Assembly: GCF_010747475.1 (NCBI RefSeq)
Contig: NZ_VSLZ01000003.1
Location: 310,001 to 374,000 of the forward strand
Length of the DNA stretch: 64,000 nucleotides
Direction: 5' to 3'
From: Halorussus sp. MSC15.2
Lineage (GTDB): Archaea; Halobacteriota; Halobacteria; Halobacteriales; Haladaptataceae
In this document: in pieces, positions 27,490 through 41,101 of the stretch
Layout of the letters: each line of letters begins with the position of its first letter
Position numbering within the stretch: the stretch's first letter is position 1
The notes under the pieces: generated by a model
The model's input: only the letters and a program-made list of their open reading frames with translations
The model's database searches: none
Told to the model about the DNA's origin: nothing
Program-made: the position numbers and the translations under genes

Positions 27490-27844
27490 GCCCTTCCTGA
27501 CGATTTTCCGGACAGTATCGGTCTACTATAGATGAACGTCGAGGACGGTTACTATTGAGACCGGGACGTACGAGGTTCGACAGTCGGAGGGTATTATTCG
27601 GACGTGAAACCGACCCGAATCTCGGCTACCGCCTCCGTTACAGGTCCGACGCCGTCCTGATTGGTTGCACACATATCTCTCGACAGACAATAATTACAAA
27701 ATCACTAATAGAATAATTTAGTCTATTCTTAATCTAATTAATCTCTCAATTGTATAAAAACTGCAGCACTGAGCTACATCCCCAAAGTGATTGAAATTAT
27801 AACACCTTATGTTTCAGACGTTCCTATCATCGGATGCAGTCCCC
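27490..27844. other. 355-base AT-rich gap before a secreted-protein gene
   Basis: No gene seen. From about 27660 to 27800 the base composition falls well below that of the chromosome (runs such as caataattacaaaatc). It contains an inverted repeat agaata-N8-tattct (27708-27727) and several TATA-like tracts. It is probably the promoter and operator region of the Tat-exported protein at 27845, or a scar of transfer. Confidence 0.5.
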
Positions 27845-28438
27845 ATGACCCGAAGCACCTCCAACCGACGTGCGTTCCTGAAGAAGGCAGCGCTGACGAC
27901 CACTGTCGCTGGCGGCGCGCTCGCCAGCGCTCAGCCCGCCGCCGCGGCCGACCAGAAGGTGATTCTTGAGGGCAACGGTGGGAGCGGAAGCTACCACGTT
28001 TACGTCAACGACCCGAACGCGTCGGCCGTCAGCAGTACGCTCGAAAGCTCCGACGGCGTCGACAACAGCTCTACCAGTTCGCGACTTTCGGGCGAACTCA
28101 GTGACGGTGACCGCGACGAGTACACGTTCGACGGGCAGGTGACCGGCGTAGGCCTTCGCGGCGACGTGTGGCTCGAGGTCGTGAATCCCAACGGCATCAA
28201 CCGTGGCGGTCGCCTCGACATCGAGGGCGGTGGCGATTCCAGCTACTGGGTCAAAGCCAGTCGAGACATGCGTGACGAGTACGGCAACCTCGAATCCAGC
28301 GACAGTGTGAGTGACGATACCTGTGACGGTACGCTCGACTTCAGCGACACGGACAGTTACTACCTCGACGGTACGATTTACGCCGTCAACGCGAGCGTCG
28401 CCGACGGGGACTCGGTCATCATCAATCACGACCTCTGA
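27845..28438 (+). CDS. Tat-exported hypothetical protein
   Basis: 197 residues from the ATG at 27845. The signal peptide has a twin-arginine motif (NRRAFLKKAALTTTVAGGAL) with cleavage probably after AQPAAAA. The mature part is Ser/Asp/Gly-rich, without Cys pairs for metal or a C-terminal anchor, so it should be released outside the membrane. It looks like a small all-beta domain (ILEGNGGSGSYHVYVND, VWLEVVNPNGINRGGRLDIE). Not recognised. The low-GC upstream region and lack of operon partners suggest an accessory, regulated gene. Confidence 0.72.
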   Translation: MTRSTSNRRAFLKKAALTTTVAGGALASAQPAAAADQKVILEGNGGSGSYHVYVNDPNASAVSSTLESSDGVDNSSTSSRLSGELSDGDRDEYTFDGQVTGVGLRGDVWLEVVNPNGINRGGRLDIEGGGDSSYWVKASRDMRDEYGNLESSDSVSDDTCDGTLDFSDTDSYYLDGTIYAVNASVADGDSVIINHDL

Positions 28439-30995: not shown

Positions 30996-31556
30996 ATGGC
31001 ACCGCTGTTGGACTCGCTCCCGCTGTTGCTCCTCGTCGCCGGTATCGGTCTCGCTATCGCCGAGGCGCTGATTCCGGGCGCACACTTCGTCGTCCTCGGC
31101 GTCGCACTCGTTCTCGCGGGGTTGGTCGGACTGCTCCTCGGTCCGGCCGCCTCGCCGCTTCTCTTGGCCGCGCTGGTGTTGGGCTTCGGGGCGGCCTCGC
31201 TGTACGCCTACCGCGAACTCGACCTCTACGGCGGCAAGGGAGTCGCGCGAACCCGGGACTCCGACTCGCTCAAGGGACAGACCGGTCGCGTCACCGAACG
31301 GGTCACGACGCAGGACGGTCAGATAAAGCTCCACGAAGGCGGCTTCAACCCCTACTACGCCGCGCGGAGTATCCACGGCGAGATTCCGGAAGGGACGGAG
31401 GTGATGGTCGTGGACCCCGGCGGCGGCAACGTCGTCAAGGTCGAGGCCCTGGAGGCCATCGAGGACCCCATCGACCGGGAGTTGCGTGACGGGCGCGAGT
31501 CGTCCTCTCGTGACGACAGTCAGCGCGAGCGGGACCGTGAAACAGAAGAGACGTGA
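30996..31556 (+). CDS. NfeD family membrane protein
   Basis: 186 residues. Four hydrophobic segments in the first ~75 residues (LLLLVAGIGLAIAEALIPGA, FVVLGVALVLAGLVGLLLG and following) and then a soluble OB-fold NfeD domain (KGQTGRVTERVTTQDGQIKLHE to VEALEAIEDP). The tail is charged. NfeD proteins are partners of SPFH/stomatin proteins and the genes normally adjoin; here the SPFH gene is 8.4 kb downstream, separated by the accessory block. The truncated short form lacks the ClpP-like protease domain of long NfeD proteins. Confidence 0.88.
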   Translation: MAPLLDSLPLLLLVAGIGLAIAEALIPGAHFVVLGVALVLAGLVGLLLGPAASPLLLAALVLGFGAASLYAYRELDLYGGKGVARTRDSDSLKGQTGRVTERVTTQDGQIKLHEGGFNPYYAARSIHGEIPEGTEVMVVDPGGGNVVKVEALEAIEDPIDRELRDGRESSSRDDSQRERDRETEET

Positions 31557-31572
31557 GTCCTCTCCGGCCCGT

Positions 31573-31680
31573 TAGCTCTCCGTCGTCTCGTTCTGTATCG
31601 TCGTTTCGGTTCCGTCGGTCTCGAAGTCGAAGATGCCGTCGGGTCGTCGACTGCACGCCGGTCGAAACGGTAATAGAAAA
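31573..31680 (-). pseudogene. Possible remnant of a coding tail (duplicate linker)
   Basis: On the minus strand one frame reads RRPDGIFDFETDGTETTI followed by QNETTES and stop. The ETDGTETTIQNET part is identical, at DNA level over 39 bases, to the linker of the PQQ dehydrogenase (35104-35142). No start or domain precedes it, so it looks like a truncated copy of a gene 3' end left at the edge of the accessory block. Confidence 0.45.
31584..31622 (+). repeat. 39-nt direct repeat, copy 1
   Basis: Identical to 35104-35142, same orientation, about 3.5 kb apart. The segment between them holds the DUF7282 and YVTN genes and most of the dehydrogenase linker region. It may mark a duplication or recombination point. 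Confidence 0.85.
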
Positions 31681-31767
31681 CGAGGGCGGTCTACCTATCT
31701 CGGAGGTCGGCCCCCACGACTCTCCAGTTACTCAGCTATGGCCGTGGCCATCTTCTCGTCACGATTA

Positions 31768-32688
31768 CTATTCCACAACGACGAAGGCGATGTCGACGAC
31801 CGCCGCGCCGCCTCTGGTGAACGGACCGTCTTTCTCACCGCCCGACTGGACGAAGTCGTACGTCTCGTTGTCGTTCGTACTCTTGTGGGGCATCGCGATG
31901 AGCGCCTGCGTCGACTGGAGTTCATCCTGATTGAACTCTGCACCCGGTACGCTCTCGAACAGCGGCACCTCCACGTCTTCGTGTTCGCCCGCATCGAGGA
32001 GTTCGGACGCGCCGATGACGCTGTCCACCGGATTTAACCCGTCTGCCACCAAGCTCAGGTCGTGGATGGCCATGAACCCCTCCTCCGGCAGGAAGGTCTC
32101 CTGCACCGTGACCTTGCTACCGCCGTACGTCTGATTCCGGAACGTGACCGTCGCACCGTCGACCTCCTTCTCCTCGTCATCGTCCTCGTCTTCGAGGTCG
32201 ACGGGTTCGTACGCGACCTTGAGGAACTCGAACTTGCCCTTTTCGTCGCCCTCACAGGGAGCCGGTTCGCCGGCGAACTTGTAGACTTGCGCCGTCTCCA
32301 CGTCGGTCCCCGTCGGAACGAGCAGGTACGACTCCCGGGCGGCCGCGTCGGCGTCCTCCGAGAGATAGAATATCTGGTAGACGTGGTATTCCTCTTTCGA
32401 CCCTCCGCACGCGACCGGACGCGTCTGGGGGAACTTCCCACCTTCGGGATTCTCCAGCAGGATGAACTTGCCGTCGCCGAACTTCTCGAACTTCTTTTTG
32501 GGCGTGAGCGCGGCCGGCTGTCCGGATGCCGCGACGGTGCCCGTACCCATCGATAGGCCAAGACCCGCTGCCGACATGGCAGTTGTCTTCTTGAGGAAGT
32601 CTCGCCGGGAGTCGAACGGACCGCCCAGTTTTTCGGTTAGTGCCTCGATGCTCTCTTTCGAACTAATGGTGTCGTTTTTCTCAGTCAT
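31768..32688 (-). CDS. Tat-exported DUF7282 domain protein
   Basis: 306 residues from the ATG at 32688. The twin-arginine signal is SRRDFLKKTTAMSAAGLGLS, preceded by a ~35-residue polar leader. The middle (about 70-190) is not recognised; it holds two Cys and an acidic DEDDDEEKE run. The C-terminal ~130 residues (VTFRNQTYGGSKVTVQETFL to GAAVVDIAFVVVE) match the haloarchaeal extracellular DUF7282 domain, often found in surface proteins. No membrane anchor is visible. It is the last gene of the minus-strand accessory block and probably has its own promoter, since 526 bases separate it from the next upstream gene. Confidence 0.78.
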   Translation of the reverse strand: MTEKNDTISSKESIEALTEKLGGPFDSRRDFLKKTTAMSAAGLGLSMGTGTVAASGQPAALTPKKKFEKFGDGKFILLENPEGGKFPQTRPVACGGSKEEYHVYQIFYLSEDADAAARESYLLVPTGTDVETAQVYKFAGEPAPCEGDEKGKFEFLKVAYEPVDLEDEDDDEEKEVDGATVTFRNQTYGGSKVTVQETFLPEEGFMAIHDLSLVADGLNPVDSVIGASELLDAGEHEDVEVPLFESVPGAEFNQDELQSTQALIAMPHKSTNDNETYDFVQSGGEKDGPFTRGGAAVVDIAFVVVE

Positions 32689-33214
32689 TGTCAGTTTGGT
32701 CTGCGGTAGCTCCGGTCTCATCCCAACACTCCTCGTTCGTCCGACACCGTGTCTATCCCATCAAACGGGAAAAATTGGAGAAACTGTTTCAGTTGTCTCG
32801 GGACTGTTGAGAGGTAATAGAGATAGATTATCCAGCGCTACAGCAAGAATCCCTCCGTTTTCAACCCCTTAATCGACGTTTCGGAGGATAACGCAATCGT
32901 TACACTCTCGTGAAGTGCAGAAGTGTATCTTCTCTCGACCGAAAGTGGAAACACGCACTCACTTATCGTCTCCCTCTTCCACTGTCAATGGCTCTGTAGC
33001 GTCCAGAGATTCCGTTTCGGTCTGTAGGAAAACTGCGCTTTCGTGCATCGTCTCGTTGCGTTCGACTTATTTTCCAGAAATAAAACTCTAGTTTCGGACC
33101 CTCGGAGAATTCTGCTCAGTTCCGGGGGATAACGCGCCCTCCGACCCTCGCGAAATCGGTGAGACGGTCAGGTGCTTTCCGCGATGAATGAGGAGTCTGT
33201 TCGAAAGAGTGTAT
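32689..33214. other. 526-base gap inside the accessory block
   Basis: No gene seen on either strand. The composition is clearly more AT-rich than the flanking genes (for example attttccagaaataaaactc near 33070). It should contain the promoter of the DUF7282 gene. I found no convincing copy of the shared promoter module seen upstream of the other two transcription units. Confidence 0.5.
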
Positions 33215-34408
33215 TCACCCGGACCTGGTAGTGGTCTCTCCAGTCGTCTTGGCAGTAGTGGCGTTCGTCGTGGTCGTCTCCCTCGCCTCAGCATCGTGCC
33301 GAATTGCGAAAGCGTACGGAGCTGGCGTGGACATTCTATCAACCACCTCGTCCGTCTCAGTGTCGATGGTGACGACCTGATTATTTCCGAGGAACGCGGC
33401 GTACGCCAGCTTTCCGTTCGGACCGACGGTGATTCCGTACGGGCCTGCCGTATACGCTTCGTGGCTCTCGACCGGAATCTCCTTCAGGGAATCGTTGACG
33501 GTGATGATGTTCGAGAGTTCGTAGCTCGGTCCGGAACCGCCTCCGTCGTTGCCGGACGCCGCCTCGTAGACGACGACCGTCCCCGCCCGCATTCCAGTCG
33601 CGTAGGCTTTACTCCCGTCGGGCGTCAGTGCGACATCCGCCGGGCCGTCGGTCAGCGGCCGTGTGCCCAAGAGCTTTCCCTGTTCGGTATCGACGACGCC
33701 CAAATCGTTCGAGACCGTGTTCGTTGTGTAAAGACGATTTCTCTCGGCGTTGAGCGCGATAGTGCGAGGCCCGTCGGCGACCTTAATCGTTGAGGTCATC
33801 TTCAGGCGCTCGACGTCGATAACGCCGACGGTATCGCTCCCGTGATTCGTGACGTAGGCCTGCGTACCGTCGGGACTGAACACGACGTCGTGTGGGTTCT
33901 CTCCGACGTCGATAGTGGTCTGGACCGCGAGTTTTTGGGTGTCGATTACGGCGACGGTGTTCTCGCCCCGATTCGCGACGAACGCGTACTGGCGGTCGGC
34001 ACTGACGCCGACACCTCGCGGTTGCTGACCGACTGGGATACGTTCGGTCTCCTCTTTCTTCTCGGGATTTATCACCGAAACGTCGCCGCTCTCGGCGTTC
34101 GTCACGAAGAAGGACTGCCCCCCGACTCCGCCCGAGATGTAGAGCGGTGCCTTCCCGACCTTGATGTGAGTGGTGTCCTTCACCGACTTCGGCAGTTTTG
34201 CGTCGGCCTTCGTCACCACCACTACGTTCGCCTCCCAGCACGTGGTGTACAGATTACCTGTGCCCGTCCCGCCACCGTCATCTTGCGCGAGGGCGGGAAC
34301 AGCACTGCCGCCGATTGCGGTTGCGGCTCCAATTCCGCCAGTGGTCCGAAGCAGTTTCCGTCTGGTGAGTCCGCTATTCTCTGTCCGCGATTCGTCATTT
34401 TGCGTCAT
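33215..34408 (-). CDS. Tat-exported YVTN beta-propeller protein
   Basis: 397 residues. The twin-arginine signal is TRRKLLRTTGGIGAATAIGG, cleaved after VPALA. The mature protein is a seven-bladed propeller of YVTN/NHL type, with blades such as SADRQYAFVANRGENTVAVI, SPDGTQAYVTNHGSDTVGVI and TPDGSKAYATGMRAGTVVVY. A Thr-rich tail ends it without a membrane helix. YVTN propellers occur in surface and periplasmic proteins, some with copper-redox partners; function here unknown. A clear Shine-Dalgarno, GGAGG (34416-34420), lies seven bases before the ATG, so the transcript has a leader. Confidence 0.85.
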   Translation of the reverse strand: MTQNDESRTENSGLTRRKLLRTTGGIGAATAIGGSAVPALAQDDGGGTGTGNLYTTCWEANVVVVTKADAKLPKSVKDTTHIKVGKAPLYISGGVGGQSFFVTNAESGDVSVINPEKKEETERIPVGQQPRGVGVSADRQYAFVANRGENTVAVIDTQKLAVQTTIDVGENPHDVVFSPDGTQAYVTNHGSDTVGVIDVERLKMTSTIKVADGPRTIALNAERNRLYTTNTVSNDLGVVDTEQGKLLGTRPLTDGPADVALTPDGSKAYATGMRAGTVVVYEAASGNDGGGSGPSYELSNIITVNDSLKEIPVESHEAYTAGPYGITVGPNGKLAYAAFLGNNQVVTIDTETDEVVDRMSTPAPYAFAIRHDAEARETTTTNATTAKTTGETTTRSG

Positions 34409-34529
34409 TCTCGTACCTCCTCGGACAGTCCCCGACGTCCGTGGTCTCTTGCCGGAATCGTCTGCGCGATGCGTCTATTTGGTCTTGGCGTGTCGTCTCT
34501 CATACCCGAGGCCCGCTACATCGTTTCGT

Positions 34530-34571
34530 CGAATAAAACGGAGCTACCGTTTGGGGTGTTCGGTTGTACAA
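34530..34571 (-). promoter_or_regulatory. Shared promoter-like element, copy 1 (upstream of YVTN gene)
   Basis: Plus-strand core cgaataaaacgga then accgtt and gtgtt. It aligns without gaps to 38367-38408, with about three quarters of bases identical over 42. On the minus strand it contains a box A, TTTATTCG, with conserved upstream bases. The box lies about 120 bases before the YVTN ATG, fitting the leadered transcript implied by its Shine-Dalgarno. Confidence 0.55.
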
Positions 34572-34704
34572 CCGGAGGTTCAGGAGTTATTCTGAATTTT
34601 AACGCGTGCTGTCGACTAGCAATTCAGACCACACTCTCAGTAAACGAGTAGTTCGTGGACAACGGTGATACAGTCTGATTATCCACGAAACAGAGGCAGG
34701 CGAG

Positions 34705-34871
34705 TGTGCATGCAACCTGCACATCCGATGCGATTACAGCGGAAGCAGGGCGAAAGCCCACGGTTGCAGCCGTGCGATGAAGCTGTAAACGCGAGTGGTA
34801 TCCATTAGATACCGAGGTCGGGTGGCGCCGACCAACGCCGCTATATGGGTCCGAGCGTGCTGATTCGGCCC
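34705..34871 (+). ncRNA. Hairpin-rich segment, possible structured RNA or mobile-element end
   Basis: Six successive potential stems: tgtgca/tgcaca (34705-34723), gggc-gaaa-gccc with a GNRA loop (34748-34759), cacgg/ccgtg (34759-34774), ggtat/atacc (34797-34813), ggtcgg/ccgacc (34816-34833) and ccga/tcgg extended by ggg/ccc (34847-34871). The GNRA loop on the plus strand suggests a plus-strand RNA. I do not recognise a riboswitch class. A TnpB-type element end is an alternative, but no transposase is seen. Confidence 0.3.
34706..34723. promoter_or_regulatory. Distal inverted repeat, copy 1
   Basis: gtgcat-N6-tgcaca followed by tccgatg, 176 bases upstream of the promoter-like element at 34530. 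The second unit has the same element (38544-38561) at 177 bases. It could be a regulator-binding site. Confidence 0.5.
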
Positions 34872-34977
34872 AGACCCCGACAACCCCCATTTGTGCGGTT
34901 TCAGACTCGATAAGCGGAATATTCGAGCACAGTCGGCAACTCGGAGTCTGGAAACCGAGGAGGGAGATAACCTAGGT

Positions 34978-36999
34978 TCAGTCGTCGTCTCCCAAGTAAC
35001 GCTGGAGTGCAGCGAAGCCCCCAAGTCCGCCGAGCGCAGTCGACGCACCAAATCCTGGCGCGCGTGCCCGACTAACGAGGTCCCGTCCGACATCGTTAGC
35101 GGCCGTCTCGTTCTGTATCGTCGTTTCGGTTCCGTCGGTCTCCGTCGTCTCGTTCGCGGCCGGTCGCTCGGTTGCGTTGACGTTCACCTGTTCGACTCGC
35201 CCTTCACCAGCGGGGACGAGTTTGTAGAGCGACCCCTCGTTCTGCTGACGAAGGAACGTCTCACTGGTCAGCACGTAGAGTTCTCCAGCTTGGTCTTCGC
35301 CGAACGAGATGACGAACCGGCTGATTCGGTTGTCGGGACGACTGAGACCCTCGGTCACGACTCGGAGCTTGTCGACACCCCAGACCCCGGTCTCCTCCGA
35401 CTCGGTGGCGACCAACAGCGTCCCGTGCGGGGCGACGGGCGAGAAACTCCAGTCGCCGAACACGTACTTGTCTTGGAGGTCCGGAAGCTGTTCCCCGGTG
35501 TAGACGTGTCCGCCGACGACGGCCTGCCCCACCGGCTTGTCCTCGTGAACGTGCGGATATTCGAGAATTGGGTCGAGCAACGGGTCGCTTCGGGGCGGGT
35601 AGCTCGTATCCGCGCACTTGAACTGTTTCGGCGGATTCCCCTGCGAGTACGGGTCGAAGCAGTGTTTCCCCTCTCGGAGCCGCCAGCCGTAGTTTCCGCC
35701 CTTCTCCACGATATCGACCTCCTCGTACAGCGCCCGACCGACGTCGCCCACGAACAACCGACCGTTCGGTCCGAACGACATCCCCCACGGGTTGCGGAAG
35801 CCCCAAGCGTAGTGTTCGTCGAGACCCGCTTGACCGACGAGCGGGTTCCCGTCGGGAATGGCGTACTCCTTCTGCTCGCCCCGGACGTTCTGACTGCCGT
35901 CCACGTCGATACGGAGGATGCTACCGAGCAGGTTGTTGTAGATGTCCTGCCCGTTGCCACCCGTGACGTGGCCCTGCATGTCGCCCGTGTCGCCGCCGAA
36001 TCCGCCGTCGCCGATAGGGACGTAGAGGAGTCCGTCGGGACCGAACGAGATGTTTCCGCTGTTGTGGTTCGACCCCGGCGACGGCATCGCCAGCACTATC
36101 TTCTCGGTGTCGGGACTCGCGCCCTCGAGGTTCGGGTCGGCCTCGAACTCCGAGACCAGCGACGCGTGGTGGGTCTCCCCGCCCATGTCGTCCTGTACGG
36201 GCGCGCTGTACCGGACGTAGAACTTCTGGTTCTGCTGGAAGTTCGGGTGGAACGCCAGTCCCAGCAGTCCGGTCTCGGGGTGCGGTCCCGCCTCGTGGAA
36301 GATGCGGTCGCTGATGTCGATGAACGGTTCGCGCTCGCTCACGTCGAGCGCCTGTTGCCCGGTAATCTCGCTCCTGTCGAGGACGTAAATCTGGCCGGGC
36401 TGGTCCGCGACGAACAGTCGGTCCTCGCCCTCGGGTGCCTTCATCGCCACCGGGTACGAGAAGCCGCTGGCGACCTCTTTCAGTCCGACCTTCGGGCCTT
36501 TCGGGAAGTAGCCCGCGTCCACCGGGTCGGGTTCCTGCTGAGTCTGGCCCTCGACCTCGATGTCGCCGCGCATGCTGAGGTAGTGGACGTCGCAGTAGTA
36601 CTGGACCATGTTCTCGGTCGCGACGAACTCGACGGTCTGGGTGTCGCCCTCGGCGTCGAGATACGGCGAAAACACGACCAAGTTCCCCTTCGTGGTGTAG
36701 ACCGAGAAGTTGTGCGACCGACCGTCGAGGTTCTCCCAGACCACCCGGTACTTCTTCCCGGCTTCGAGGTTCAGCGTCGGGTTCTTCACGCCCGAGATTC
36801 GCTCGGGCGCTCGCCCAATCCAGTAGTCGGCCACGCCGTCCAATCTGAACGTCTGCGCTACGTCCGAGTCGTCCTGCGCGGCCGCGACGCTGGCCGCACC
36901 TGCGGCGGTCGCTCCGGCCGCCCCCACGGCCTTCACGAAGTCCCGACGCGACGTGTCTCCGAAGAATCGTTCCGTTGGTGAGTTCGTGTCTCGTGTCAT
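34978..36999 (-). CDS. Tat-exported cupredoxin-PQQ aldose dehydrogenase with PGF-CTERM anchor
   Basis: 673 residues in four parts. (1) Tat signal, TSRRDFVKAVGAAGATAAGA (RR at 18-19). (2) Blue-copper domain, about 48-152, with type 1 ligands His96 (SHNF), Cys136, His139 and Met143 (YYCDVHYLSM). (3) Soluble PQQ-dependent sugar dehydrogenase propeller, about 165-600, with LLGLAFHPNF (catalytic-type His251), IGDGGFGGD, GFRNPWGMSFGPNGRL and EEVDIVEKGGNYGW. (4) A Thr/Asn-rich linker and a C-terminal PGF motif (648-650) with helix and acidic end, a PGF-CTERM signal for archaeosortase processing. It should oxidise aldoses outside the cell and pass electrons to its own copper domain. It follows the copper protein gene by 28 bases, so they form an operon. 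Confidence 0.88.
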   Translation of the reverse strand: MTRDTNSPTERFFGDTSRRDFVKAVGAAGATAAGAASVAAAQDDSDVAQTFRLDGVADYWIGRAPERISGVKNPTLNLEAGKKYRVVWENLDGRSHNFSVYTTKGNLVVFSPYLDAEGDTQTVEFVATENMVQYYCDVHYLSMRGDIEVEGQTQQEPDPVDAGYFPKGPKVGLKEVASGFSYPVAMKAPEGEDRLFVADQPGQIYVLDRSEITGQQALDVSEREPFIDISDRIFHEAGPHPETGLLGLAFHPNFQQNQKFYVRYSAPVQDDMGGETHHASLVSEFEADPNLEGASPDTEKIVLAMPSPGSNHNSGNISFGPDGLLYVPIGDGGFGGDTGDMQGHVTGGNGQDIYNNLLGSILRIDVDGSQNVRGEQKEYAIPDGNPLVGQAGLDEHYAWGFRNPWGMSFGPNGRLFVGDVGRALYEEVDIVEKGGNYGWRLREGKHCFDPYSQGNPPKQFKCADTSYPPRSDPLLDPILEYPHVHEDKPVGQAVVGGHVYTGEQLPDLQDKYVFGDWSFSPVAPHGTLLVATESEETGVWGVDKLRVVTEGLSRPDNRISRFVISFGEDQAGELYVLTSETFLRQQNEGSLYKLVPAGEGRVEQVNVNATERPAANETTETDGTETTIQNETAANDVGRDLVSRARAPGFGASTALGGLGGFAALQRYLGDDD
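35104..35142 (+). repeat. 39-nt direct repeat, copy 2
   Basis: Lies inside the dehydrogenase gene, encoding the ETDGTETTIQNET linker on the minus strand. Identical to 31584-31622. Confidence 0.85.
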
Positions 37000-37027
37000 T
37001 GGTTGTCCTGTTGTGGTCGTTGTCGGT

Positions 37028-38332
37028 TCAGGGCGTGACGACGAGCGTCCCTCGCATTCCCTCTCGGGCGTGGCCGGGGACGCCGCAGACGTAGGTGAAC
37101 TTCCCGACCTCCTCTGGCGTGAACGTGACGCTGGCGGTTCTTCCGGGGAGTATCGTGTCGGTCTTGACGCCGAATTTGGGCAGTTTGAAGTTGTGCGAGA
37201 TGGTCCCGACGTTCCGGAATCGGATGGTCACTTCGTTCCCCTGCTCGACGGTGATTTCCTCTGGGTCGAAGGTGTACTCCTGACCAGTTACCTCGATTTC
37301 GGTACCCGCGGCTTCCTGCGTGGTCGGAGTCGGCGTGTCCTCGAACTCAGTCGGATACTGCGGTTCGAACGGCGCTTTCTGGAGCGTGTTCTCCTCGAAC
37401 ATCACGTGGATGAACTTCTGTTTGACCGGGATGCCGTCGAGGGGCGCGTATTTGGGCTTTCCCTGCTTGGTTATCTTAATCGGGAGCACTATCAGATGCG
37501 TGTGAAGGAGTCGTCCGGCGATGGTGTTCTCGGGGCGAAGCGGCAGGTCTTCCTCGATAGCAAGGTTGTACGTATCGGTCCGGACCGTCTGCGTCGTCAT
37601 CCAGTGAGTGACTCGGCGCTTGCTTACGGTCGTACCGTTCACGATGACGTCGGCGAGGGAGTACGAGGCCCCGTACGTGTACACCTTGGGCATGAGGGGC
37701 GACCCGGTGTCCGTAAGCCCGTGGTGGAATCTGTCGGTGAACACGCCCCCGCCGGTCTGGTACTCCGGAATCGGCGGCGCGAATATCGTCCGGAAGTCGA
37801 GTTCGTAGTTGTTCCGCTTCGGGTCCGTGAACCGGAGTTTACCGACCTCTATCGCGTCCTCGGTCTTCGTCGGCTTCCCCGAGTCCTTCGGGTCGCGGTC
37901 GTGGTACGTCAGTTCGAACTCGCCGTCGATAACTCGTCCCTCGTCGCTGAACGCCGTCGGGACCGTCGTCGTGGTGAACTCGCCGTCCTCGACCGCGCGC
38001 TTGTCGAGCGGAACGCCGACGGGAAACGGGTACTGCCGGAGTAGCTCTTTGATTGCCGGTTTCTTTGCCTTCTCGATGACTGGTTCGACGAGTTGCTTGG
38101 GATTCTCCGGCGTTCCGAACACCTTCTTGCTCAGTCGGCGCTTGCCCGGAAGGACCCAGTAGACGAGTCGTCCCGCGTCCTGCTTCACCTGTACTTCGGT
38201 CGGTAAGCCCTGACCCTGCGTCGTCTCTTGGGCCGTCGCCGCACCACCGAGGCCCGCAGTTATTCCCACCCCTGCGGTCGCTCGCAGGAATCGCCTGCGC
38301 GATGCGCCGCGTCCGTTACTGTCGTTGCTCAT
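37028..38332 (-). CDS. Tat-exported protein with C-terminal blue-copper (cupredoxin) domain
   Basis: 434 residues. Twin-arginine signal, SRRRFLRATAGVGITAGLGG. Residues about 40-320 form a domain I do not recognise, with several His residues (FHHGLTD, LLHTHLIVLP) and no Cys. After a Thr/Pro linker, residues about 340-434 are a plastocyanin-like cupredoxin with His380 (ISHNF), Cys416, His421 and Met426 (YVCGVPGHAREGM). There is no C-terminal anchor, so it should be a soluble extracytoplasmic electron carrier or a copper-dependent enzyme. It is the first gene of the operon with the PQQ dehydrogenase; a GGAGGG ribosome-binding site lies about six bases before the ATG. Confidence 0.85.
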   Translation of the reverse strand: MSNDSNGRGASRRRFLRATAGVGITAGLGGAATAQETTQGQGLPTEVQVKQDAGRLVYWVLPGKRRLSKKVFGTPENPKQLVEPVIEKAKKPAIKELLRQYPFPVGVPLDKRAVEDGEFTTTTVPTAFSDEGRVIDGEFELTYHDRDPKDSGKPTKTEDAIEVGKLRFTDPKRNNYELDFRTIFAPPIPEYQTGGGVFTDRFHHGLTDTGSPLMPKVYTYGASYSLADVIVNGTTVSKRRVTHWMTTQTVRTDTYNLAIEEDLPLRPENTIAGRLLHTHLIVLPIKITKQGKPKYAPLDGIPVKQKFIHVMFEENTLQKAPFEPQYPTEFEDTPTPTTQEAAGTEIEVTGQEYTFDPEEITVEQGNEVTIRFRNVGTISHNFKLPKFGVKTDTILPGRTASVTFTPEEVGKFTYVCGVPGHAREGMRGTLVVTP

Positions 38333-38366
38333 TCTCTCCCCTCCACCGTCGCCATCAGCGAACGAG

Positions 38367-38408
38367 CGAATAAAGCGGAACGACCGTTCAGAGTGTTCCG
38401 TTTCGCAA
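38367..38408 (-). promoter_or_regulatory. Shared promoter-like element, copy 2 (copper protein-dehydrogenase operon)
   Basis: Plus-strand core cgaataaagcgga then accgtt and gtgtt; aligns gap-free to 34530-34571. The box A TTTATTCG (minus strand) begins about 35 bases before the ATG at 38332, giving a very short leader. The box itself is generic (ppsA has the same octamer at 56228), but the similarity continues upstream of it. Confidence 0.6.
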
Positions 38409-38543
38409 GGCGTAATTCGTCGGTCGCAAATCGCCGTTGAAGTTACCGACCGACGTCAGAATCGTACTCGTCGCCGGGAATCGAGGTCTCCAACGCGGAA
38501 ACACGTCATTGCTAATCGTTCACAATGTGAGTGTGTGGTGGAC

Positions 38544-38561
38544 GTGCATCGAGCGTGCACA
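38544..38561. promoter_or_regulatory. Distal inverted repeat, copy 2
   Basis: gtgcat-N6-tgcaca followed by cccgacg, 177 bases upstream of the promoter-like element at 38367. Matches copy 1 in both half sites and, at five of seven positions, in the following heptamer. Confidence 0.5.
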
Positions 38562-38683
38562 CCCGACGGAGGAGAGACTCGGAACACGGTGGAGACTCCG
38601 AAACGGTGTGTAGTTACGAGAGAGTGTATCGTCTGTAAATGTGTACGTCCACAGACGGCGGCAAATATCTGTGACCGACCGGT

Positions 38684-39808
38684 TCACGTCCGAATCGCGT
38701 ACAGTCGTCCGTCGTTGCTGCCCACGTAGAGAACGCCGCCGACCACGGCCGGTGAGGACATCACCATGTTCCGAGTCCCGAACTGCCAGCGCGTCACTCC
38801 GTTACTCCTGTCGAGCGCGTACACCGTACCGTCTCCGCTCCCCACGTACAGCATTTCGCCGACGATGGCCGGGGACGATTCGACGACGTCGCCGGTCTCG
38901 AATCGCCAGCGTTCGGTCCCGTCGTCCGCCGCCAAGGCGTAGACGTTCCCGTCCCAACTCCCGACGAAAACCGCGTCGCGGCCGACCGCAGGCGACGATT
39001 TCACGAGGTCCGCGGTGCCGAACTGCCAGCGCTTCGTTCCGTCCGCGGCGTCCAGCGCGTACGCGTTCCCGTCGTTGCTCCCCACGTAGACGGTGTCTCG
39101 CGCGACGCTGGGGGCCGAGGCCACCGCGTCGTTCGTTTCGAAGCGCCAACGCCGGGTACCGTCGGCGAGATTCAGCGCGTACACGCTCCCGTCGTTACTC
39201 CCGGCGTAGAGGGTCTCGTCGGCGATAGCGCACGCCGCGTCCATCGCGTCGCCGGTTTCGAATCGCCAACGCTCGGTGCCCTTCGACGCATTGAGCGCGT
39301 ACACGGTCCCGTCTGTATCCCCGACGTAGACGGTGCCGTTCGAGACTACGGGAGACGCCGCGACCGGGTGACCGGTATCGAATCCCCACCGTCGCCGCCC
39401 GCTTCCGGCGGCGAGAGCGTACAGCGTCCCGTCCAGACTCCCGACGTAGACGGTGTCGCCTTCGACCGCCGGCGAGGAGAAGACGTGGTGGTCCGTCTCG
39501 ACCGCCCAGCGCTCGTCGCCCGTGACGGTGTCCACGGCGTAGACTATCCCGTCCGTACTCCCCACGTAGGCGGTGCCGTTCACGACTGCGGGAGAGGAGA
39601 CGACCGGGTGGTGAGCGTCGAAGCGCCATCGCGTCCGCTCCGTCGGGTCGCCCGACACCTGCTCGCCTCGCGTCTCGCGGGTCTGAGCGGACCGACGGGG
39701 TCTGCCGGTGTTCGCCGTGTCGTACTGGAACGTCGGCCAATCGTCCGCGCGGCGTCTCGGTGGGGTTGTCATCGATTCTCGGTCGGGAGCGTCGGTGGCG
39801 TCGCGCAT
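38684..39808 (-). CDS. PQQ-like eight-repeat beta-propeller protein
   Basis: About 374 residues (start at 39808; an ATG at 39772 is also possible). From about residue 55 it consists of eight tandem repeats of 40 residues with the pattern SSPAV-x4-YVGS-x-DGxVYAL-x6-RWxFET. Each is one blade of a PQQ-like (BamB/quinoprotein type) propeller, and the last blade is closed by an N-terminal DWPTFQYDTANTG strand. No signal peptide is visible even in the longest frame, so it appears cytoplasmic, unlike its neighbours. Catalytic residues of true quinoprotein alcohol dehydrogenases are not evident, so a sensor or scaffold role is more likely than an enzyme. Confidence 0.82.
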   Translation of the reverse strand: MRDATDAPDRESMTTPPRRRADDWPTFQYDTANTGRPRRSAQTRETRGEQVSGDPTERTRWRFDAHHPVVSSPAVVNGTAYVGSTDGIVYAVDTVTGDERWAVETDHHVFSSPAVEGDTVYVGSLDGTLYALAAGSGRRRWGFDTGHPVAASPVVSNGTVYVGDTDGTVYALNASKGTERWRFETGDAMDAACAIADETLYAGSNDGSVYALNLADGTRRWRFETNDAVASAPSVARDTVYVGSNDGNAYALDAADGTKRWQFGTADLVKSSPAVGRDAVFVGSWDGNVYALAADDGTERWRFETGDVVESSPAIVGEMLYVGSGDGTVYALDRSNGVTRWQFGTRNMVMSSPAVVGGVLYVGSNDGRLYAIRT

Positions 39809-39943
39809 CCGTCTTCCGGCCGCCTGAACGCAGTATCGATTCGGCACTCGTCGTCTCGATAGTGCGGTCACCTCGAACTTCGCTAGAGGAAGAGTGGCGG
39901 TGAGGGGGAACGCTTAACATTCATTCTTGCTAACAGACCAAGT

Positions 39944-41101
39944 ATGTTCGTTCCACTACAGGCCGCCGCGGTCGGTGGCTTCACGATAGTCGCCCTGCTG
40001 GTACTCGCACTGGCAGTAATTACCATCTGGCAGTCGGTCGAAATCGTCGATGCCACCGAGAAGCGCGCGCTGACGGTGTTCGGCGAGTACCGGAAACTCC
40101 TCGAACCCGGTATCAACTTCGTGCCGCCGTTCGTGAGCGCGACCCACCGCTTCGACATGCGAACCCAGACCCTCGACGTGCCCCGACAGGAGGCCATCAC
40201 CCGCGACAACTCGCCGGTGACCGCCGACGCCGTGGTCTACATCAAGGTCATGGACGCCAAGAAGGCGTTCCTCGAAGTCGAGGACTACAAGCGCGCCGTC
40301 TCGAACCTCGCCCAGACCACCCTGCGGGCCGTGCTGGGCGACATGGAACTCGACGACACGCTCAACAAGCGACAGGAGATTAACGCCAAAATCCGCCGCG
40401 AACTCGACGAACCCACCGACGAGTGGGGTATCCGCGTCGAGAGCGTCGAAGTTCGGGAAGTCAACCCGAGCAAGGACGTTCAGCAGGCGATGGAGCAACA
40501 GACCTCCGCCGAACGGAAGCGCCGCGCCATGATTCTGGAGGCGCAGGGTGAGCGACGGAGCGCCATCGAGACCGCCGAAGGTGACAAGCAGTCGAACATC
40601 ATCCGTGCGCAGGGTGAGAAGCAGAGCCAGATTCTGGAAGCGCAGGGTGACGCGGTTTCGACGGTCCTCCGCGCGAAGTCCGCCGAGTCGATGGGCGAGC
40701 GCGCGGTCATCGACAAGGGAATGGAGACGCTCGAATCCATCGGTCAGGGCGAGTCCACCACCTTCGTGCTCCCGCAGGAACTCTCGTCGCTGGTCGGTCG
40801 CTACGGCAAGCACCTGACCGGGAGCGACGTGGAGACCGACGGCGAGAAACTCGATAGCCTCGACTTCGACGCCGAGACCCGCGAACTCATCGGTCTCGAC
40901 AACATCGAGGAGATTCTGGGTCAGATAGACGAGGAGGCCGAGATGGACGTCGAAGCGATGGAGAAGGAGGCCCAAGCCATCAAGGAGGGCGAGGACCCCG
41001 CCAACATCAAGAGCGCCGACGAGGTCATCGAAGAGATGGACGAGGAGGACCCCGACCTCGAAGACGTGCAGGCCGAGATGGACGCGGAGTTAGAGAAGTA
41101 G
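39944..41101 (+). CDS. SPFH/stomatin-prohibitin family membrane protein
   Basis: 385 residues. One N-terminal membrane helix (about 12-32, TIVALLVLALAVITIWQSVE), then the SPFH/Band 7 domain (KRALTVFGEYRKLLEPGINF, PRQEAITRDNSPVTADAVVY), a long Ala/Glu/Gln-rich coiled coil (EAQGERRSAIETAEGDKQSN and repeats) and an acidic C-terminal tail. Such proteins form large membrane microdomain rings with NfeD partners. The NfeD gene lies 8.4 kb upstream across the accessory block. A T-rich tract after the stop (41109-41122) may terminate it. Confidence 0.93.
   Translation: MFVPLQAAAVGGFTIVALLVLALAVITIWQSVEIVDATEKRALTVFGEYRKLLEPGINFVPPFVSATHRFDMRTQTLDVPRQEAITRDNSPVTADAVVYIKVMDAKKAFLEVEDYKRAVSNLAQTTLRAVLGDMELDDTLNKRQEINAKIRRELDEPTDEWGIRVESVEVREVNPSKDVQQAMEQQTSAERKRRAMILEAQGERRSAIETAEGDKQSNIIRAQGEKQSQILEAQGDAVSTVLRAKSAESMGERAVIDKGMETLESIGQGESTTFVLPQELSSLVGRYGKHLTGSDVETDGEKLDSLDFDAETRELIGLDNIEEILGQIDEEAEMDVEAMEKEAQAIKEGEDPANIKSADEVIEEMDEEDPDLEDVQAEMDAELEK

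Follow-up and report, generated by a model that had tools for sequence, protein, structure and literature searches.

Genes at the locus

The DNA analysed here, called the window below, is a stretch of 64,000 nucleotides from the haloarchaeon Halorussus sp. MSC15.2. Five complete open reading frames, all on the minus strand, lie between an nfeD-type gene and an SPFH/Band 7 gene and span positions 31768-39871 (Table 1). In the direction of transcription they encode an eight-repeat PQQ_2/BamB-type propeller, whose 120-bp period was confirmed as real by repeat analysis, a copper protein (CuP), a cupredoxin-GSDH fusion (GSDH), a YVTN/lactonase-type propeller, and a protein ending in a DUF7282 domain, for the function of which no description was found in the literature.

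Table 1. Features of the block and its flanks, in window positions
Feature	Position	Strand	Basis and remarks
nfeD-type gene, left flank	30996-31556	+	Pfam NfeD 20 bits, under its cut-off
Insertion between nfeD and SPFH	31557..39897 (8.3 kb)	.	DNA alignment to sister genome and empty site in congeners
39-bp exact repeat of GSDH linker-coding DNA	31584..31622	.	Repeat search; left edge of insertion
Tat-motif protein with C-terminal DUF7282	31768-32721	-	Pfam DUF7282 107 bits; separate unit, 490-bp gap
Tat-motif YVTN/lactonase-type beta-propeller	33215-34408	-	Pfam/NCBIfam; 570-bp gap from operon
Cupredoxin-GSDH	34978-36999	-	Pfam GSDH 104.3 bits (cut-off 25)
Matching 39 bp within GSDH gene	35104..35142	.	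Repeat search
Copper protein (CuP)	37028-38332	-	Pfam Cupredoxin_1 53 bits (C-terminal)
Eight-repeat PQQ_2/BamB-type propeller	38684-39871	-	Pfam 205 bits
SPFH/Band 7 gene, right flank	39944-41101	+	Pfam Band_7 about 145-146 bits

Twin-arginine motifs are found in the four downstream products: SRRRF at residue 11 of CuP, SRRDF at residue 17 of GSDH, TRRKLL at residue 15 of the YVTN protein, and SRRDF at residue 38 of the DUF7282 protein. The NCBIfam Tat model scores above its cut-off only for the DUF7282 protein and GSDH, while the YVTN protein and CuP are recognized by motif alone. CuP and GSDH are thus predicted to be exported by Tat. Neither the sequence nor the Tat model reveals an export signal in the eight-repeat propeller, which is probably cytoplasmic. 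The initial annotation, made from the letters alone, had described four consecutive minus-strand Tat genes with an eight-repeat propeller gene upstream, and the reading frames are as it listed them; its picture of an extracytoplasmic module suits the four genes with Tat motifs but not the fifth. Judged by their spacing, the five genes form four or more transcription units. Only CuP and GSDH, separated by 28 bp, are predicted from their spacing to form an operon. Upstream of the YVTN gene, a 42-bp stretch (34432-34473) resembles the DNA of the CuP Tat signal (79%), and is possibly a degraded signal or a chance likeness.

An insertion between nfeD and SPFH

How did these genes come to lie between nfeD and SPFH? 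The closest sister genome (L088), which is 93-96% identical in DNA and has an SPFH protein 100% identical to that of the window, carries an empty site. Its DNA alignment to the window ends near 31489 and restarts near 39900, which bounds the insertion to within some tens of bases, on the left between 31490 and 31583 and on the right at about 39897. For comparison, the SPFH locus with about 14 kb upstream was taken from each of 17 other Halorussus genomes, and in all 17 nfeD adjoins SPFH and the block is absent; in one of them (L101) a partial SPFH-like stretch lies between the two genes, still with no block gene there. Identity to these congeners is 74-92% for nfeD and 92-100% for SPFH. Among 43 other haloarchaeal SPFH loci, the 17 congeners counted in, nfeD is found within 1.5 kb of SPFH in 39. 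The G+C content of the block is 61.3%, and every 8.3-kb flank window is higher (63.7-68.9%). Because all the congeners, the closest sister among them, have nfeD next to SPFH and lack the block, the block is a species-specific insertion, and the adjacency in the genus and in the wider sample, together with the low G+C, places it beyond chance. The usual adjacency of the two genes and the insertion between them, the one stated and the other proposed in the initial annotation, are borne out.

A tRNA scan and Pfam gave no tRNA target, integrase or transposase at the edges or among the block genes. At the left edge, 39 bp repeat exactly the linker-coding DNA of the GSDH gene, and they are probably what is left of the 3′ end of a second GSDH-like gene. 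Two further observations concern the DNA to the left of nfeD. The MetRS gene carries a one-base frameshift relative to the sister genome (26735-26760); in this essential gene, an error of sequencing or assembly is the likeliest cause. A gene for a small Tat-motif protein with no Pfam match (27809-28438) separates the MetRS gene from pyk. Relatives of it, 49-78% identical, were found at the corresponding site in just two of the 17 congeners, so that this stretch is variable too.

The cupredoxin-GSDH fusion

The predicted GSDH protein consists of the Tat motif, an N-terminal type-1 cupredoxin, a six-bladed GSDH/AA12-like domain, a linker rich in Thr and Glu, and a C-terminal PGFG with a hydrophobic segment. 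These last two are present in most relatives as well, with no match to the NCBIfam PGF-CTERM model. The type-1 His-Cys-His-Met ligand set of the cupredoxin is complete (H96, C136, H139 and M143). No description of such a fusion was found in the literature. In RefSeq, however, haloarchaeal proteins are annotated as cupredoxin-fused PQQ-dependent sugar dehydrogenases; they have the same domain order and about 40-48% identity to GSDH, and some genomes carry several copies. GSDH of the window differs from them in forming a deep orphan branch and in standing in an operon with CuP. In Haladaptatus halobius, the cupredoxin is annotated as a separate reading frame adjoining the GSDH frame.

Is the propeller a PQQ enzyme? 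By sequence and by fold it is nearest to human HHIP, and then to the PQQ-dependent Asd and sGDH, with which it has the fold in common. The alignment to Acinetobacter sGDH extends across the regions of His144 and Arg228-Asn229. H312 corresponds to the catalytic His (sGDH H144, CcPDH H363) and R402-N403 to the Arg-Asn pair at the PQQ quinone (sGDH R228-N229, CcPDH R430-N431; PMC6881789 for the CcPDH residues), and H312, R402 and N403 are invariant in 21 aligned sequences. Equivalents of sGDH Lys377 and of the Arg in the last blade are not evident: R561 lies near the position of the last-blade Arg for the PQQ carboxylate (CcPDH R621, sGDH R408), in a region where the alignment is weak, and is unconserved in relatives. 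GSDH also differs from sGDH and Asd by its fused cupredoxin and its predicted surface anchor. Similar again are the AA12/CcPDH-type PQQ pyranose dehydrogenases, which have in common with GSDH a six-bladed propeller with catalytic His and Arg-Asn, secretion (predicted for GSDH) and a fused one-electron carrier; archaeal homologues of AA12 enzymes were noted earlier (PMC4133262; PMC6881789). In the CcPDH type the carrier is an AA8 cytochrome b with heme b, whereas in GSDH it is a type-1 copper domain; GSDH also differs in that the Arg matching CcPDH R621 is unconserved in its family and in that its PQQ binding is putative.

A search for PqqC came up empty in all 99 genomes of the order that were covered, that of Halorussus sp. 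MSC15.2 included (best score 19 bits against a cut-off of 240); it had no positive control, as the control genomes gave no match either. Together with the unconserved last-blade Arg and the best match to HHIP, this suits a reading in which the propeller does not use PQQ in vivo but is an HHIP-like ligand binder or works with another cofactor, and the cupredoxin serves for copper binding at the surface. We regard this as unlikely. HHIP, which also has no cupredoxin and is not known as an enzyme, has lost the Arg-Asn pair (GLHDP in place of GFRNP), while the GSDH family keeps it invariant. Moreover, CcPDH is PQQ-dependent in spite of missing several PQQ ligands of sGDH (PMC4133262), and many bacteria that do not synthesize PQQ scavenge it (PMC12124388). 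PQQ use by GSDH is therefore plausible, and it would require scavenging. Of the PQQ-type sugar oxidation first proposed for the locus, the catalytic residues speak in favor, and the PqqC search and the one unconserved ligand do not.

Five genes, one module?

If the five genes worked together, they might be expected to travel together. A search of 293 genomes of the order gave relatives of CuP in 26, and one of 146 genomes gave GSDH, cupredoxin-fused or plain, in 81. Among 195 genomes, DUF7282 relatives are present in 29, eight-repeat relatives in 51 (the best 48-52% identical), and close YVTN relatives (E below 1e-40) in only three, all Halorussus. Neighbourhoods of 20 CuP and 20 GSDH genes were compared: no dehydrogenase was found near CuP, no CuP near the dehydrogenase, and neither the YVTN nor the eight-repeat gene near either. 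DUF7282 appears near CuP at three loci, only as a domain of a large unrelated protein 6-7 kb off. When the neighbours of CuP and GSDH were screened for conservation, those that emerged were all confined to particular clades, and several are likely antisense reading frames. In Natrinema thermotolerans, the CuP homologue is preceded, at a distance of 149 bp and in the same orientation, by a gene for a DUF7405 (DyP-peroxidase-like) Tat protein (L185:6437-7720). The one exception to the separation of the pair is in Halosimplex aquaticum, where the N-terminal domain of CuP (CuP-N) and a cupredoxin-GSDH are encoded by divergent neighbours about 345 bp apart. CuP-N is nearly absent from the family of this organism (one other, partial, among 146 genomes), and the odds of such an adjacency by chance were estimated at a few percent, assuming that a genome has a few copies of GSDH and that there are some 28 CuP loci; it is suggestive only. 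In trees, CuP and GSDH of the window both sit on long orphan branches, to which the Halosimplex pair is not sister, and therefore no donor can be named.

The idea of a single module, as initially put forward, is only partly supported by this comparison: the five genes are not a conserved set. Could the block then be a loose assemblage, in which unrelated genes for secreted proteins gathered at an insertion site and have no joint function beyond, or even without, the CuP-GSDH operon? The number of transcription units points this way, as do the differing distributions of the YVTN, DUF7282 and eight-repeat genes and the fact that the set of five recurs in none of the neighbourhoods compared. Tat is the common export route in haloarchaea, and four Tat genes in a row are therefore weak evidence of a shared role. 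The gap of just 28 bp, however, and the independent adjacency in Halosimplex argue for a link between CuP and GSDH, and we consider this reading unlikely, to about the same degree as that of a propeller that does not use PQQ. The preferred reading, a CuP-GSDH operon with a joint function, tentatively treats the DUF7282, YVTN and eight-repeat genes as parts of the same insertion but as separate units with no evident link to the operon.

The copper protein and its N-terminal domain

CuP consists of the Tat motif, CuP-N (about residues 45-320), and a C-terminal plastocyanin-type cupredoxin with a complete type-1 set, H380, C416, H421 and M426. The His-Cys-His-Met ligands in CuP and GSDH are those of halocyanin-, plastocyanin- and auracyanin-type cupredoxins, but unlike these types the two cupredoxins here are each joined to a larger domain, of which CuP-N is undescribed. 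CuP-N, whose family is rich in histidine, gave no match to any described family in Pfam (17 members searched), in NCBIfam (4 members, the Tat signal model aside) or in PDB (phmmer). Relatives in genome contigs were found with an alignment query, a single CuP sequence having given no matches. Near-invariant motifs of CuP-N are HG (H204), HxM (H243, M245), HxH (H277, H279) and a second HxM (H309, M311), with M245 about 90% conserved in the haloarchaeal set. They are common to haloarchaea and to metagenome-assembled genomes of a gammaproteobacterium (L169) and an actinobacterium (L172), whose contigs may be misbinned. In the latter (L172:6001-7589), at least two CuP-N-like stretches stand in tandem. 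The AlphaFold model of CuP is weak (pLDDT 60) and its significant PDB matches are cupredoxins; no fold is therefore claimed for CuP-N, and the metal site of CuP is deduced from sequence only.

What does CuP-N work with? In most Halorussus that carry it, the domain stands alone. In Natrialbaceae and two Halorussus it is joined to a cupredoxin of the GSDH type, and in CuP of the window to one of the plastocyanin type. In Haloferax mediterranei (E6P09_RS15805/RS15800) and in the gammaproteobacterial genome, a plastocyanin-type cupredoxin is encoded by a gene of its own next to that of CuP-N. These repeated fused or adjacent pairings are the best evidence that CuP-N may work with a cupredoxin. That CuP-N represents a hitherto unrecognized class of copper redox domain acting outside the cytoplasm, marked by these four motifs, found in haloarchaea and a few bacteria, partnered with an attached or neighbouring cupredoxin and here wired to a copper-fused AA12-like dehydrogenase, is conceivable but on balance doubtful. 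The HxM and HxH motifs and the cupredoxin partners could also suit a domain for storage, delivery or detoxification of copper, the locus then serving copper handling and not catabolism, and copper-related operons with plastocyanin-like proteins have been described in Haloferax mediterranei (PMC11218638). By Pfam, however, the block has no copper ATPase, chaperone or CopC-type gene, and the operon partner of CuP is a dehydrogenase-type propeller, so a copper-handling locus seems decidedly improbable. The initial annotation knew of no described system with this gene set. This needs narrowing, as cupredoxin-fused GSDH is common in haloarchaea and already annotated; the undescribed part of the locus is CuP-N.

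A proposed secreted copper-relay pair

We favor, with somewhat less than even confidence, a laterally acquired insertion of 8.3 kb whose core is a CuP to cupredoxin-GSDH operon encoding a secreted oxidoreductase pair with a copper relay, set among loosely assembled exported proteins. What is observed is the insertion, the short gap between the two genes, their domains and the conserved catalytic and copper-ligand residues, and from these we infer the steps beyond domain assignment as follows. CuP and GSDH would cross the membrane via Tat, and the C-terminal PGFG segment of GSDH would anchor it on the cell surface. The propeller would oxidize an aldose or a similar alcohol using bound PQQ scavenged from outside, and pass the electrons on to the type-1 copper domain fused to it. 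The next acceptor may be the cupredoxin of CuP, or else halocyanins and a terminal oxidase; halocyanins are copper proteins that serve haloarchaea where others use cytochrome c (PMC8305020). CuP-N would be a copper-binding redox domain, through its HG, HxM, HxH and HxM motifs, and trade electrons with the cupredoxin of CuP. The copper relay, which the initial annotation proposed as a possible path to the respiratory chain, is reasonable because GSDH and its neighbour CuP both carry type-1 ligand sets.

In favor of this pair count the empty site, the low G+C, the 28-bp gap, H312, R402 and N403, the type-1 ligands, the pairings in Haladaptatus halobius and of CuP-N, and the Halosimplex neighbours; against it count the PqqC search with no positive control, the unconserved last-blade Arg, the separation of CuP and GSDH in almost all genomes and the poor CuP model. 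The genome is a draft of 25 contigs with 3.7% contamination, and the MetRS frameshift nearby hints at base errors, but an assembly artefact or contamination is very improbable: the contig that contains the block is 727 kb long, the sequence on both flanks is Halorussus, and the block's genes have haloarchaeal relatives.

If the copper-relay pair is real, GSDH, as a propeller dehydrogenase that carries its own copper relay, would parallel the fungal AA12 enzyme with its fused heme, and it would illustrate a way for extracellular sugar oxidation to feed an archaeal respiratory chain. Haloarchaea have many PQQ-type enzymes while known PQQ synthesis is apparently missing, which makes cofactor supply a testable question. 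As for CuP-N, a member is present in the cultivable Haloferax mediterranei, and thus its metal content and role are directly testable.
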